This document shows positions 41,445-45,758 of a stretch of 64,000 bases of DNA, piece after piece. The DNA comes from Hymenobacter negativus (GTDB lineage Bacteria > Bacteroidota > Bacteroidia > Cytophagales > Hymenobacteraceae): NCBI RefSeq assembly GCF_016056375.1, contig NZ_JAEDAE010000008.1, positions 124,001-188,000 on the forward strand, written 5' to 3'. Position 1 is the stretch's first letter. The number at the start of each line of letters is the position of its first letter. The notes under the pieces were generated by a model. That model ran no database searches. It had not been told where the DNA came from and saw nothing but the letters and a program-made list of their open reading frames with translations. The position numbers were made by a program, and so were the translations under genes.

Positions 41445-41473
41445 AAAGCCCGGCCCTGTGCCGGGCTTTTTTT
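41445..41473 (+). terminator. Intrinsic terminator of secDF
   Basis: AAAGCCCGGC and GCCGGGCTTT form a 10-base stem with a 5-base loop, ending in seven T residues. Confidence 0.88.
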
Positions 41474-41539
41474 GTATCGAAGCAACCGAATTTGCTTACC
41501 TTCCGAGTGGTCTAATAAGAAGCCTGCTACCTGCCATCG

Positions 41540-42151
41540 ATGCTGCACATTTCCCCACCTAATTCTGCCCCACCGCCGCTGTCCGAGCTGCTGGCTGCCT
41601 GCGTGCGACAGGAGCGAGTGGCCCAGCGTCGGCTCTACGGCCAGTTCCACGGCTTTGCGATGGGCATTTGCCTGCGCTACGCCCGCGACCGTGACCAAGC
41701 CCTGGAGGCAGCTAACGACGGCTTCGTGAAAGTTTTCCGCGACCTGTACCGCTTCGATGCCACCCGCCACCCGGACGATGTGCTGGGCTCGTTCCGGGGC
41801 TGGCTCAAGCGCATCATGATTCACACGGCCATCGACCACTACCGCGCCAATGAGCGCCACCAGCACCAGCAGGAACTCGACGACGCTACCCTGAACCAGG
41901 CCGACCAAGGCGCCACGCCCCTCGACTCGCTGAGCTACGACGAACTACTGGCGCTGGTGCAGCGCCTGCCGCCCGCCTACCGGGCGGTGTTCAACCTGAA
42001 TGTGATTGATGGCTTCGGGCACGAGGAAATTGCTGAGCAGCTGCATATCTCCGTGGGCACTTCCAAGTCTAATTTATTTAAAGCCCGGGCCCATTTGCGG
42101 GCCATGCTGGCCCAGATTACCCCCTCTCCAGCAATTCGATATGTGGTCTGA
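41540..42151 (+). CDS. ECF-type RNA polymerase sigma factor
   Basis: A 203-residue sigma-70 family factor. Region 2 is seen in LRYARDRDQALEAANDGFVK and VFRDLYRFD; region 4 helix-turn-helix in LPPAYRAVFNLNVIDGFGHE and EIAEQLHISVGTSKSNLFKA. It should direct polymerase to an envelope-stress or surface-function regulon. Its 3' end overlaps the next gene by 11 bases, an arrangement typical of a sigma factor with its membrane-bound anti-sigma partner. Confidence 0.92.
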   Translation: MLHISPPNSAPPPLSELLAACVRQERVAQRRLYGQFHGFAMGICLRYARDRDQALEAANDGFVKVFRDLYRFDATRHPDDVLGSFRGWLKRIMIHTAIDHYRANERHQHQQELDDATLNQADQGATPLDSLSYDELLALVQRLPPAYRAVFNLNVIDGFGHEEIAEQLHISVGTSKSNLFKARAHLRAMLAQITPSPAIRYVV

Positions 42152-43703
42152 TAACGATATAGATAACGCGTTCCAACGGCTGAACCCGCCGGAGCCGGAA
42201 CCAACACCTTTCCCGCTGGATGCCTGGCTGCGGCTGGAAACCGAGCTGGACAAGGCCGTGATTGAACGCGCCGTCCGGCGGCGGGTGTGGAAGTTTTTTG
42301 TGGCCGAAGTGGCCGTAGTGTTGCTGATTGGACTGGGCTGGATGCTGTGGCCAACCCAGCCCAGCCAGGTAGCTGAAAAGTCTTCGAAACCAATGGCGGC
42401 CGCTGGCAGCACAACGCCTGAGCATGGCTCGAACCAGCAGACCGCAGACCAACCGGATGTTGCCAGCGCAGCGACAGCGGCAGGTAGAAAAGCTCGTAAT
42501 ACTGAAGCAAGCACCAGCGCGCTAGCCAATCCCACGGCGGCGGCCCCAGAAACACAGCCTTTGCAACCGGTAGTGCCTTCGGCTACTGCCAGCACCGCAT
42601 CAGTTGCGACAACATCGGTTCCTGCACCTGCAACGGCAGTTGCCCATCGGCGGCGCAAGCTGGCCGCGCTCCGGCCGGCCTATCTGGCTGGTTTTGCCTC
42701 CCGCAAAGCCCGGCAAGCCCGCGGCTACGAGCGCAGCGCAGCCGAAACGTCAGTACCTGCCGCAGCAACGCGGAAAATCAGTACCATCGCCCCAACAGTT
42801 GCCGGCTCCCCTGGCCAGCAGCCGACGGCGGGCAGTGCCGCCGGGCACGCCGCAGTACCAGTCGAAGCCAACGCGACGGCCGTTGCTTCGGGCCGGCAGC
42901 ATCGCGAAAGCCCCTTGCCTTCGCTAAGCCGGGCGGCCGTTTCCGGCGCGGCAACGCCAGTTGATGCGGCGCCGGAAACGGCCGCTGAGACTGCAGCAGC
43001 AGTTGCGCCGCTGGTGCCCATTGCAACCCGGCTGGAGGTAGCTGCTACGGCTGGCCTGCCAGCCCCGCTGCTGGCCGCCGCCGCGGTGCCCGCCAACTTA
43101 CCCATCCCGCTACGGCAGCCCCATTTCTACGTTGGGCTGGTGGCCGCGCCCGACCTGAGCACAGTTAAATTTGTGGACGTGGAGCGCCCCAAACTCAATG
43201 TTGGCGTGGTGCTCGAATACCGCCTCACCAACCGGCTGCTCGTGAGCACCGGCCTGCTGCGCGTCAACAAAGAATATTACGCCCGCCGCGAAGACTACGA
43301 CTGGAGCGCCTACCCCCGAGCGGCCACCCGCAATTTCTACTGGGTCGACGGTGCCTGTACGGTGCTCGACGTGCCGCTGAACCTGCGCTATGATGCCGTG
43401 GTGCGGCCGCAGGCGCGGCTGTTTGGCGCTATGGGCCTCTCCTCCTTCTTCATGCAGCGCGAGCAGTACAGCTACGACTACACCGAGAACAACTCGACTT
43501 ACCTCTGGGAGCGCAGCTACGTGAACGAGAACCAGCACCTGTTCAGCGTGCTCAATCTGTCGCTTGGCTACGAGCACAGCCTCGGCCCCCACTGGCGCGT
43601 GCAGGCCGAGCCCTACGCCAAGCTGCCCCTGGGCGGCGTGGGAGCAGGCAAGGTGCGCCTGACCAGCGGCGGCATTTTCTTCGGGCTGAAGTACGGCTTC
43701 TAG
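42141..43703 (+). CDS. Membrane-anchored protein with long linker and C-terminal outer-membrane beta-barrel-like domain (putative sigma partner)
   Basis: A 520-residue protein with an unusual layout. Residues 1-50 are a short cytoplasmic-type, charged segment (WSDNDIDNAFQRLNPPEPEP; LRLETELDKAVIERAVRRR) like the N-termini of Bacteroidota sigma-partner membrane proteins. 51-70 is one transmembrane helix (FVAEVAVVLLIGLGWMLW). About 75-325 is low-complexity, rich in Ala, Pro, Thr and Ser. About 327-520 is beta-strand rich and ends in aromatic GIFFGLKYGF, as in outer-membrane barrels (FYVGLVAAPDLSTVKF; LSLGYEHSLGPHWRV). If so, one chain could span inner membrane, periplasm and outer membrane. The start at 42141 overlaps the sigma gene by 11 bases. 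An alternative is a periplasmic barrel-like domain held by the inner-membrane helix. Confidence 0.75.
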   Translation: MWSDNDIDNAFQRLNPPEPEPTPFPLDAWLRLETELDKAVIERAVRRRVWKFFVAEVAVVLLIGLGWMLWPTQPSQVAEKSSKPMAAAGSTTPEHGSNQQTADQPDVASAATAAGRKARNTEASTSALANPTAAAPETQPLQPVVPSATASTASVATTSVPAPATAVAHRRRKLAALRPAYLAGFASRKARQARGYERSAAETSVPAAATRKISTIAPTVAGSPGQQPTAGSAAGHAAVPVEANATAVASGRQHRESPLPSLSRAAVSGAATPVDAAPETAAETAAAVAPLVPIATRLEVAATAGLPAPLLAAAAVPANLPIPLRQPHFYVGLVAAPDLSTVKFVDVERPKLNVGVVLEYRLTNRLLVSTGLLRVNKEYYARREDYDWSAYPRAATRNFYWVDGACTVLDVPLNLRYDAVVRPQARLFGAMGLSSFFMQREQYSYDYTENNSTYLWERSYVNENQHLFSVLNLSLGYEHSLGPHWRVQAEPYAKLPLGGVGAGKVRLTSGGIFFGLKYGF

Positions 43704-43786: not shown

Positions 43787-44185
43787 ATGCCCTTTCTCGC
43801 CTCTTTTTCTGTATCTATCCGGCCGGCTTTGCTGAGCGCCGTGGCCACGGCGCTGCTGGGCATGGCGGCCAGTTGCACATACTCGCACGGCGATCCCGCC
43901 CCGGCCTGCGACGTGCCCAGCGAAACCATCACCTACGCCGGAGTCATTTCTCCCATTTTTGAGGCCAACTGCCGGCGCTGCCACGGCGCGGCGGTGTACG
44001 CCACGCTGGGCGGCGGCAACGACTTCAGCAGCTACGCGGCCATCAGCAGCTACCCGCAGGGCACCCTGCTGGGCTCCATCAAGCACGCCCCCGGCTACGA
44101 TTTTATGCCCAAAGACGGCGGCAAGATTTCGGATTGCGACATCGCCCGCATCGAAGCCTGGTATGCCAAGGGCAAACCCCAGTAA
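43787..44185 (+). CDS. Small exported c-type cytochrome-like protein
   Basis: A 132-residue envelope protein with one haem c motif CRRCH (in EANCRRCHGAAVY) and a likely distal methionine in YDFMPKDGG. The N-terminus is hydrophobic (LLSAVATALLGMAASC) and may be a weak lipoprotein signal at AASC. The fold matches small cytochrome domains found with YceI and DUF5777 proteins in Bacteroidota. The ATG at 43787 is chosen over 43724, since the extra residues add nothing family-like. It begins a three-gene run with gaps of 23 and 41 bases. Confidence 0.82.
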   Translation: MPFLASFSVSIRPALLSAVATALLGMAASCTYSHGDPAPACDVPSETITYAGVISPIFEANCRRCHGAAVYATLGGGNDFSSYAAISSYPQGTLLGSIKHAPGYDFMPKDGGKISDCDIARIEAWYAKGKPQ

Positions 44186-44208: not shown

Positions 44209-44799
44209 ATGAAACGCTCCTTCTTTCTGCTATCAGCCTGCTTGTTGTTCTCTGCGCTTGCGGGCGCACAGGCGCAGAGCAAGTACATGACCAAAACGGG
44301 GCGTGTGTCGTTTTTTTCGGCCACCCCGATTGAGGACATCGAAGCCAAAAGCCAGCAAACGGCGGCCATTCTCGATTTTGGGACGAGCCAGCTGGCCTTC
44401 TCCGTACCCATCAAAAGCTTTGTGTTCCGGCGCACCCTCATGCAAGAGCACTTCAACGAGAATTACATGGAGTCGGACAAATTTCCCAAGGCCACCTTCA
44501 CGGGGCGTTTTGTGGGGTTTGATGCCGCTACATTGGCCACTGCCGGCCCGCACAATGTGCCGGTAGAAGGCGACCTCACCCTGCACGGCGTGACGCACCA
44601 CATCCAAGTGCCGGCCAGCGTGGAACTGAAAGGCGGCCAATTGCTGGCCTTTGCTACCTTTCCAGTAGCTTCGGCCGACTATAATATTGAGATTCCGCTG
44701 CTGGTGCGCAACAACATTGCCAAGGTCGTGACCGTGCGCGTGGCCCTCTCCTGCGACCCCGTGGCGGGGGCCGTGGGTGCCGCCACCGCGCCCCGCTAG
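44209..44799 (+). CDS. YceI family lipid-binding protein
   Basis: A 196-residue periplasmic protein. The signal peptide (LLSACLLFSALAGAQAQ) is followed by a YceI-type lipocalin-like barrel: GRVSFFSATPIEDIEAKS, FKNRTLMQEHFNENYMESDK-like segment (FVFRRTLMQEHFNENYMESD), FPKATFTGRF and EGDLTLHGVTHHIQVPASV. YceI proteins bind polyisoprenoid or other amphiphilic lipids. It lies in the middle of a cytochrome-YceI-DUF5777 run, suggesting a shared role in an envelope electron-transfer or quinone-related process. ATG 44209 gives a clean signal peptide. Confidence 0.9.
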   Translation: MKRSFFLLSACLLFSALAGAQAQSKYMTKTGRVSFFSATPIEDIEAKSQQTAAILDFGTSQLAFSVPIKSFVFRRTLMQEHFNENYMESDKFPKATFTGRFVGFDAATLATAGPHNVPVEGDLTLHGVTHHIQVPASVELKGGQLLAFATFPVASADYNIEIPLLVRNNIAKVVTVRVALSCDPVAGAVGAATAPR

Positions 44800-44840: not shown

Positions 44841-45758
44841 ATGACTCAAAATCTTTACCCTTCCCGTGGCTTCCTGGGCTTGTTGGTGGCCGGGCTGCTG
44901 GCACTGGCCAGCCCCGCCCGCGCCCAAACCGACCTGCTGCAGGACCTCGAAAGACAAACCGCCGACTCGACCAAGCGCGAGGTGGTGGCGGCCACGTTCA
45001 AGGGCACGCACATCATCAATGCGCAGTCGGTCGAAACGCCGGGCCAGGGCACACTGGCCTTCCTCATCCAGCACCGCTTCGGCACCCTGAATAGCGGCGC
45101 TTATAATTTCTTCGGCCTCGACCAGGCCGTACTGCGCCTGAGCTTCGAGTATGGCCTGACCAATCGGCTGGCCGTGGGCATCGGCCGCAGCAACATCGAA
45201 AAAACCTTCGACGGCTTCCTAAAATACCGGGCCTTGCGGCAAACCAGCGGGGCGCGGCCCATGCCGGTATCGGTCACCCTGTTTGCCTCGGCAGCCATCA
45301 CCACGCTCAAGTTTGGCACCCTGCCCACGGAGCGCACCACGGCGTCGCGCCTCGACTATACCTACCAGGTGCTGATTGCCCGCAAGGTTAGCTCGGGCCT
45401 GTCGTTGCAGCTCATGCCCACGCTCATCCACCGCAACTACGTGCCCCTGGCCGGCATGCAGAACGACGTGTATTCTATCGGCGGAGGACTGCGCCAGAAG
45501 CTCACCAAACGCATTGCCCTCACCGCCGATTATTTCTACGTGCTACCCGGCTACGCGGCCGACAACTTCCGCAACGCCCTCGGCGCGGGGTTCGACATCG
45601 AAACCGGCGGCCACGTTTTCCAGCTGCACGTCACCAACGCTCAGGGCATGACGGAGAAATTCTTCGTACCCCAGACCAGCGGCGATTTCTTCAAGGGCGA
45701 CATCTACTTTGGCTTCACGGTGGCGCGAAATTTCACGGTCAAGTCGCAGCTAAAATAA
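44841..45758 (+). CDS. DUF5777 family outer-membrane beta-barrel protein
   Basis: A 305-residue exported protein. A signal peptide (LLVAGLLALASPARAQ) precedes a DUF5777-type barrel with HRFGTLNSGAYNFFGLDQAV, EYGLTNRLAVGIGRSN and IYFGFTVARNFTVK at the end. It should sit in the outer membrane. It is the last gene of the cytochrome-YceI-DUF5777 run and ends before a very strong bidirectional terminator. Confidence 0.85.
   Translation: MTQNLYPSRGFLGLLVAGLLALASPARAQTDLLQDLERQTADSTKREVVAATFKGTHIINAQSVETPGQGTLAFLIQHRFGTLNSGAYNFFGLDQAVLRLSFEYGLTNRLAVGIGRSNIEKTFDGFLKYRALRQTSGARPMPVSVTLFASAAITTLKFGTLPTERTTASRLDYTYQVLIARKVSSGLSLQLMPTLIHRNYVPLAGMQNDVYSIGGGLRQKLTKRIALTADYFYVLPGYAADNFRNALGAGFDIETGGHVFQLHVTNAQGMTEKFFVPQTSGDFFKGDIYFGFTVARNFTVKSQLK

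Follow-up and report, generated by a model that had tools for sequence, protein, structure and literature searches.

A Dma-type sigma/anti-sigma pair of Hymenobacter as a probable autoregulated switch for an envelope redox gene set

The Dma proteins, reportedly named in a 2024 PNAS paper, are the closest described counterparts of a sigma/anti-sigma pair encoded in a 64,000-nucleotide stretch of Hymenobacter negativus DNA (assembly GCF_016056375.1, contig NZ_JAEDAE010000008.1, positions 124,001 to 188,000 of the forward strand), referred to below as the window. A report on Bacteroides thetaiotaomicron describes the family, namely Dma1 and Dma2 with the sigma factors Das1 and Das2, as four-part trans-envelope anti-sigma factors with an N-terminal sigma-binding domain, a transmembrane helix, a long disordered tether and a C-terminal β-barrel, encoded adjacent to the gene for an extracytoplasmic function (ECF) sigma factor (PMC13088901). 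The window pair has, by gene order and prediction, all of these traits in common with Dma1 and Dma2, the sigma-binding role of its N-terminal domain being proposed here, and by its features, as compared with the published description of the Bacteroides proteins, it appears to be a Hymenobacter member of the Dma family. An anti-sigma factor predicted to span the periplasm and to end in a β-barrel has been on record for Phocaeicola vulgatus since 2022 (PMC9308784), and the EcfO-Reo systems of Bacteroides fragilis and P. vulgatus likewise combine a sigma gene with a following gene for a large anti-sigma factor of this predicted layout (PMC9308784, PMC13114119). The signals proposed for these relatives are outer-membrane stress (PMC13114119, PMC9308784) or a glycan (PMC13088901).

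The initial annotation of the window took the partner of the sigma factor for a single polypeptide that links an outer-membrane barrel to a cytoplasmic sigma-binding tail, and regarded this as an unusual route of surface sensing. The polypeptide itself, with an N-terminus genetically tied to an ECF sigma factor, one helix, a linker and a barrel, stands, but the route can no longer be called unusual or new, as the same architecture had been published for P. vulgatus in 2022 (PMC9308784) and for Dma of B. thetaiotaomicron (PMC13088901). What looks new is the surroundings of the pair, namely a conserved gene set for electron carriers and outer-membrane proteins together with a promoter-like element, which the initial annotation had missed. 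The output of Dma in B. thetaiotaomicron is vesiculation (nigD1 in the case of Dma1) and polysaccharide loci (PMC13088901), and EcfO-Reo, for which outer-membrane toxins and, in B. fragilis, also oxygen are inducers, has nigD surface lipoproteins and a lipopolysaccharide (LPS) glycan gene in its regulon (PMC9308784, PMC13114119), whereas the window pair is linked to genes for a cytochrome or cupredoxin, a YceI protein and a DUF5777 barrel. We propose, with a probability of roughly 70%, that Dma/Das-type pairs of this kind are autoregulated switches for an envelope redox module.

All features of the pair and its gene set described below lie on the + strand. The das-like sigma gene (41540..42151) encodes a protein of 203 amino acids in which Pfam recognizes Sigma70_r2 (41 bits against a cut-off of 24) and Sigma70_r4_2 (63.4 bits against 25.7), and NCBIfam the model TIGR02937 (66.2 bits against 42.9). 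The presence of Sigma70 regions 2 and 4, with no region 3 between them, marks it as an ECF sigma factor, and its sequence matches in the PDB are ECF sigma factors, including 6in7 and 1or7. The dma-like gene (42141..43703, with its ATG at 42141 and its stop at 43703) encodes the 520-residue anti-sigma factor, delineated from its open reading frame, hydropathy, alignments and a structure model, and its start overlaps the sigma stop by 11 bases (42141..42151), precisely as first annotated, along with the ECF identity of the sigma factor. A relative of the partner at E 1e-5 or better is present in 59 of 101 Hymenobacter genomes, the window's own included. For the genus we combined 30 fetched loci with 13 longer loci from the same genomes, giving 43 loci from 30 distinct genomes, and in all 43 the gene immediately ahead of the partner, in the same orientation, is a sigma gene. 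The start overlaps of 11-32 bases are biased towards 11 because a script picked whichever partner ATG came closest to an overlap of that length. A phylum-wide search at E 0.001 with a profile built from 18 relatives matches 44 of the 395 genomes, and a sigma gene precedes the partner at all 30 fetched loci, 27 of them outside Hymenobacter; several of these pairs do not overlap and instead abut within 9 bases. The initial annotation had suggested a search for the same layout in other Bacteroidota, where it indeed recurs, and its recurrence at 43/43 genus and 30/30 phylum loci argues that it is not due to chance.

Downstream of dma lie the genes for a c-type cytochrome lipoprotein, the first of the set (43787..44185; heme motif CRRCH and a lipobox, with the start read from the sequence), a YceI family protein (44209..44799; Pfam PF04264, 61.4 bits, cut-off 23.7) and a DUF5777 membrane β-barrel protein (44841..45758; Pfam PF19089, 306 bits, cut-off 23.1). 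For the last of these, structure prediction from 13 closely related sequences gave a mean predicted local distance difference test score (pLDDT) of 28 and no usable fold. With the starts chosen, the gaps from dma through cytochrome and YceI to DUF5777 are 83, 23 and 41 bases, and a consensus scan found no terminator-like site between dma and DUF5777 on the + strand. The same scan, which is weak on its own (three such sites in the region against a mean of 5.7 in shuffles), places a terminator-like hairpin with a T-run (41452..41477) after secDF, just ahead of the promoter-like element. Given this hairpin, the short gaps and the lack of an internal terminator-like site, the genes from das to DUF5777 likely form one transcription unit. 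Homologues of the cytochrome, YceI and DUF5777 genes follow dma in all 13 Hymenobacter loci with longer flanks; secDF lies upstream in ten of these (the sequence ahead of the pair in L032 and L035 does not contain it, and L036 stops at a contig end), and a NifU gene lies downstream in 11. The DUF5777 gene lies 1.9-3.7 kb from dma in 56 of 59 Hymenobacter places, the exceptions being two drafts of about 400 and about 910 contigs without DUF5777 on the same contig, and one genome (G091) in which it is 557 kb away. Every one of the 59 dma-bearing Hymenobacter genomes has DUF5777, against 22 of the 42 without dma.

Comparable linkage is seen well beyond the genus. We analyzed about 7 kb on each side of 40 non-Hymenobacter places from 37 genomes, all matching the partner at E 2.6e-42 or better (four genomes with weak partial matches only, and second partial matches, being left out), along with, as a control, 20 other sigma/anti-sigma places chosen for long open frames from the matches of a profile of the N-terminal segment and helix; contig ends truncate some of the regions. 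The 40 loci contain das in 39 cases, YceI in 29, DUF5777 in 27 and a cytochrome profile match in 17, with YceI and DUF5777 on the dma strand without exception (29/29 and 27/27), as against one YceI, one DUF5777 and two cytochromes in the control. The control locus with YceI and DUF5777 (L190) is itself a relative of the family (E 3e-44), in which the set is divergent, and a further control, L188, is also a relative (E 1e-40), without the gene set. All-against-all clustering recovered no other sense-strand gene family in at least eight of the 40 loci, and the only further recurring cluster is antisense to das. The most frequent gene order is das-dma-cytochrome c-YceI-DUF5777 (16 loci), followed by das-dma-YceI-DUF5777 (7), YceI-DUF5777-das-dma (4) and das-dma-YceI (2), with other orders in 11. 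Genome-wide, DUF5777 is present in 41 of the 44 phylum genomes with the dma type and in 107 of the 351 others; these overlaps, like those for the genus, were read by eye from lists.

The electron carrier of the set appears to be exchangeable: such a gene is found in 21 of the 29 loci with YceI, encoding a cytochrome c in 16 and a cupredoxin in five. The gene ahead of YceI in the four YceI-first loci is a cupredoxin (PF00127 over cut-off in all four), and in L170, which has the order das-dma-YceI-DUF5777, a cupredoxin read by eye from the sequence lies between dma and YceI. The heme motif of the 17 cytochrome-profile proteins is CxxxxCH in 11 (e.g. L152 and L160) and CxxCH in six, and the former accounts for the low yield of a regular expression for CxxCH, which hit near YceI in 5 of the 29 loci. 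In L168 and L173 the gene at the cytochrome position is longer, with repeats before the CxxxxCH; Pfam identifies SprB in L173, and L168 looks alike. A literature search with narrow term matching and thin coverage of subscription journals found no account of a linkage of YceI, DUF5777 and a cytochrome to a sigma pair of this type.

The second feature of these surroundings is an ECF promoter-like element, GCAACC-N16-CGAGT, at 41482..41508, which is conserved upstream of the sigma gene and has a single match in the window. The region upstream of sigma in 19 close relatives is unalignable save for this one element. The form AACC-N16/17-CGAGT precedes the sigma gene in all 30 Hymenobacter genomes, against a mean of 0.09 in shuffles, and is absent elsewhere in the 136 kb of these 30 loci. 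Outside the genus a relaxed form, GCAACC-N15-17-[CT]G[TA], is present in 34 of the 39 regions ahead of sigma (shuffles, mean 0.2 and maximum 2/39), and the stricter element is present before das in 21 of 40 loci and in none of the 20 controls. At the four loci where cupredoxin, YceI and DUF5777 lie ahead of das, the element stands before the cupredoxin gene, in the strict form in L172, L174 and L181 and in the relaxed form in L169. A search of the window's genome for the longer element with up to three mismatches returned the das site (two mismatches) and one other (three mismatches), that is, no convincing second site. The element at 41482..41508 is probably a Das-dependent, autoregulated promoter.

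Several observations weigh against an autoregulated switch for a redox module. DUF5777 occurs in 148 of the 395 phylum genomes and the dma type in 44, which implies that the module mostly exists without this regulator, and, within Hymenobacter itself, 22 of 42 genomes retain the DUF5777 gene in the absence of dma; Fisher tests on the presence of the two ignore kinship and overstate independence. No YceI gene is found nearby in 11 of the 40 non-genus loci, and no electron carrier was detected in eight of the 29 loci with YceI. The window cytochrome scores 25.7 bits with PF13442, below the cut-off of 27, and, among six cytochrome-profile proteins run through Pfam, five are over the cytochrome cut-off and one, L173, yields none. 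The relaxed element also precedes five of the 20 control sigma genes, and its GCAACC block alone eight of them (37 of 39 outside the genus), so that, judging from these motif counts, the relaxed form may mark the sigma family at large rather than this branch; a short version is not enriched in the window's genome, where it matches 15 times and its reversed control 29 times. Finally, the N-terminal 50 residues of the partner, on which sigma binding would depend, are modelled at block pLDDT values of only 48-71.

The architecture of the partner was reconstructed from hydropathy, profile searches and an AlphaFold2 model built from 14 sequences (mean pLDDT 53; predicted template-modelling score 0.39). 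The proposed sigma-binding segment, residues 1-50 (42141..42290), has predicted helices at 4-14 and 25-35. One strong hydrophobic segment follows at residues 52-70 (42294..42350; Kyte-Doolittle mean 2.18; helix 38-68 in the model), preceded by R/K residues (DKAVIERAVRRRVWKF) and followed by TQPSQ; the R/K on its N-terminal side point to a positive-inside, N-in orientation of this inner-membrane helix. The periplasmic linker, residues 71-325 (42351..43115), is rich in Ala, Pro, Thr and Ser and predicted to be disordered, with 69% A/G/P/S/T/N/Q over its 255 residues and a pLDDT below 50 throughout 70-325. It leads into the outer-membrane barrel domain, residues 326-520 (43116..43700), modelled as a β domain at 329-519 in which ten-residue blocks mostly score 70-90 and the lowest 49-62. 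OMP_b-brl_2 (PF13568) matches this domain at E 2.4e-5 and 25.0 bits, under the cut-off of 27, and the same stretch at 27.4 bits, just over it, in a whole-genome search. The barrel model lists nine strand segments, two of which we read as one bent strand, giving about eight predicted strands; an even number would put the linker end and the C-terminus both in the periplasm, as a spanning model needs.

The fold of residues 326-520 is shared with OmpA/OprF/OmpW-type barrels (Z 16-17.5): superposition on OprF (4rlc) gives Z 17.5 and a root-mean-square deviation of 2.0 Å over 132 aligned residues, OmpW and OmpA give Z 16-17, and the Foldseek E is 1.8e-10 (Foldseek, VIA-align). Barrels of that type are not known to have an N-terminal cytoplasmic or transmembrane part or a sigma partner. 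A search of PDB sequences with the dma profile found no related entry (best E 0.056). The charged N-terminus with one inner-membrane helix, the Ala/Pro/Thr linker of about 250 residues and the C-terminal outer-membrane barrel of the initial annotation are all consistent with these predictions, and the soluble fold that it had named as counter-evidence was not obtained. The aromatic C-terminal ending on which it remarked holds for the window protein, but one sub-group of the genus has other short tails.

Comparison of the Hymenobacter relatives shows that the N-terminus and the barrel are alignable, with barrel residues well conserved within the genus, and that the linker is unalignable yet present. 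Its length is 201-326 residues in the 30 Hymenobacter genomes and 127-305 in 26 of 27 others; the remaining one, L064, was printed with a linker of 53 owing to a spurious domain, its barrel really beginning near 277. This fits a tether that would be constrained in length and not in sequence. A K/R-rich patch lies within the linker at 42645-42731 of the window (residues 169-197), and basic stretches are also seen in several relatives; it might touch peptidoglycan.

A profile of the N-terminal segment and the helix alone matches 300 of 395 class genomes at E 0.01. Among 40 loci examined 36 match the N-terminal profile, and an ECF sigma gene precedes on the same strand in all 36, most of the pairs overlapping or abutting; several of the 36 places are shared with the 30-locus phylum set and one is counted twice, and the other four are weak hits for which the script reported no match. 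Of all the observations, this 36/36 coupling, a matter of gene order, speaks most strongly for the N-terminal segment as the probable sigma-binding part. A mirror-tree comparison was dropped as a pointer to the N-terminus, as sigma distances correlate no less with the barrel (0.84) than with the N-terminal 48 residues (0.78).

The window's genome has six such sigma/anti-sigma pairs, of which one matches the profile weakly (E 5.3e-4). The window's pair and L087/L092 are over the Pfam barrel cut-off in the whole-genome search; L095 (23.9 bits) and L090/L093 (20.6 bits in one search and none in another) are below it, and L094 and L096 have no Pfam barrel match at all. The sister pairs L092, L093, L095 and L096 lie on contigs C11, C1, C14 and C17, respectively. 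L094 (C11:774911-775228, minus strand) is a membrane protein linked to a sigma gene, which lacks a barrel and carries the proposed N-terminal sigma-binding motif twice in tandem; going by locus coordinates, the open frame of L089, a barrel protein in its own right, starts within a few bases of its end on the same strand, and by their arrangement the two resemble a split version of the fused anti-sigma/barrel protein.

From these observations we infer a mechanism that extends from sigma binding and the direction of regulation to the signal, the release step and a part for the module in electron transfer. At rest, Das would be held at the inner membrane by the first ~50 residues of Dma, with the helix crossing that membrane, the ~255-residue disordered linker crossing the periplasm and the OmpA-like barrel lying in the outer membrane. 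Damage to the outer membrane, a barrel that fails to assemble or the binding of a ligand would change the state there and cause Dma to be altered or cut, perhaps through regulated proteolysis, and the freed Das would transcribe from GCAACC-N16-CGAGT its own pair along with the cytochrome c, YceI and DUF5777 barrel genes. Electron transfer is the simplest guess for the role of the module, prompted by the cytochrome/cupredoxin swap seen here and by Shewanella, where a YceJ-YceI chain has YceI beside a cytochrome and YceI is proposed to be a periplasmic electron mediator (PMC8981235). The Shewanella partner is cytochrome b561, which differs from the cytochrome c or cupredoxin lipoprotein and the DUF5777 barrel of the window set (PMC8981235). 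A bolder form of the proposal, for which we would give the odds as rather poor, is that the phylum-wide Dma branch is the dedicated one-protein outer-membrane sensor for an as yet undescribed envelope electron-transfer module comprising a cytochrome c or blue-copper lipoprotein, a YceI carrier and a DUF5777 barrel; if so, the state of the outer membrane would directly set how many redox carriers are supplied to it.

With regard to the release step, the barrel might monitor its own assembly, such that loss of the function of the β-barrel assembly machinery (BAM) or of LPS, and not a surface ligand, frees the sigma factor. This variant is compatible with the switch proposed above, and we place it somewhat short of even odds. 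The predicted barrel has a small fold of the OmpA type and carries no additional domain for a ligand, and BcpT induces the Phocaeicola pair and bacteroidetocin, a BamA inhibitor, is a reported inducer too (PMC9308784, PMC13114119). However, conservation of the barrel throughout the genus is to be expected under assembly sensing and ligand sensing alike, and our data do not separate the two.

A more serious departure would be that the Dma-type anti-sigma factor runs a general envelope-stress regulon located elsewhere, like EcfO-Reo, and that cytochrome, YceI and DUF5777 are mere long-standing neighbors. EcfO-Reo is indeed induced by antibacterial toxins and controls nigD genes and an LPS glycosyltransferase (PMC9308784, PMC13114119), and the 11 non-genus loci without YceI nearby are what such a scenario would lead one to expect. 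Nevertheless, the linkage holds over several families and always on the same strand, the element moves ahead of the set where the set precedes das, and the long element is without a convincing second site in the window's genome; we therefore consider this explanation improbable. The reading as three-protein cell-surface signalling of the FecA-FecR-FecI type, many FecI/FecR pairs being in use in Bacteroidota and the ECF sigma factor with a single-helix partner being reminiscent of them, can be rejected almost outright, as Pfam searched up to E 1 finds neither FecR nor a TonB-dependent receptor in the partner and no receptor family is among the neighbors recurring in at least eight of the 40 loci, in line with the contrast drawn in the initial annotation.

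For the question of what Dma and Reo proteins sense and serve, the branch described here supplies a candidate output that is compact and conserved and probably under autoregulation. The interchange of cytochrome and cupredoxin points to electron transfer, and with the defined promoter-like element a single reporter in non-gut Bacteroidota would suffice to study the signal, its release step and the output. The gene set also provides a first functional lead for DUF5777.

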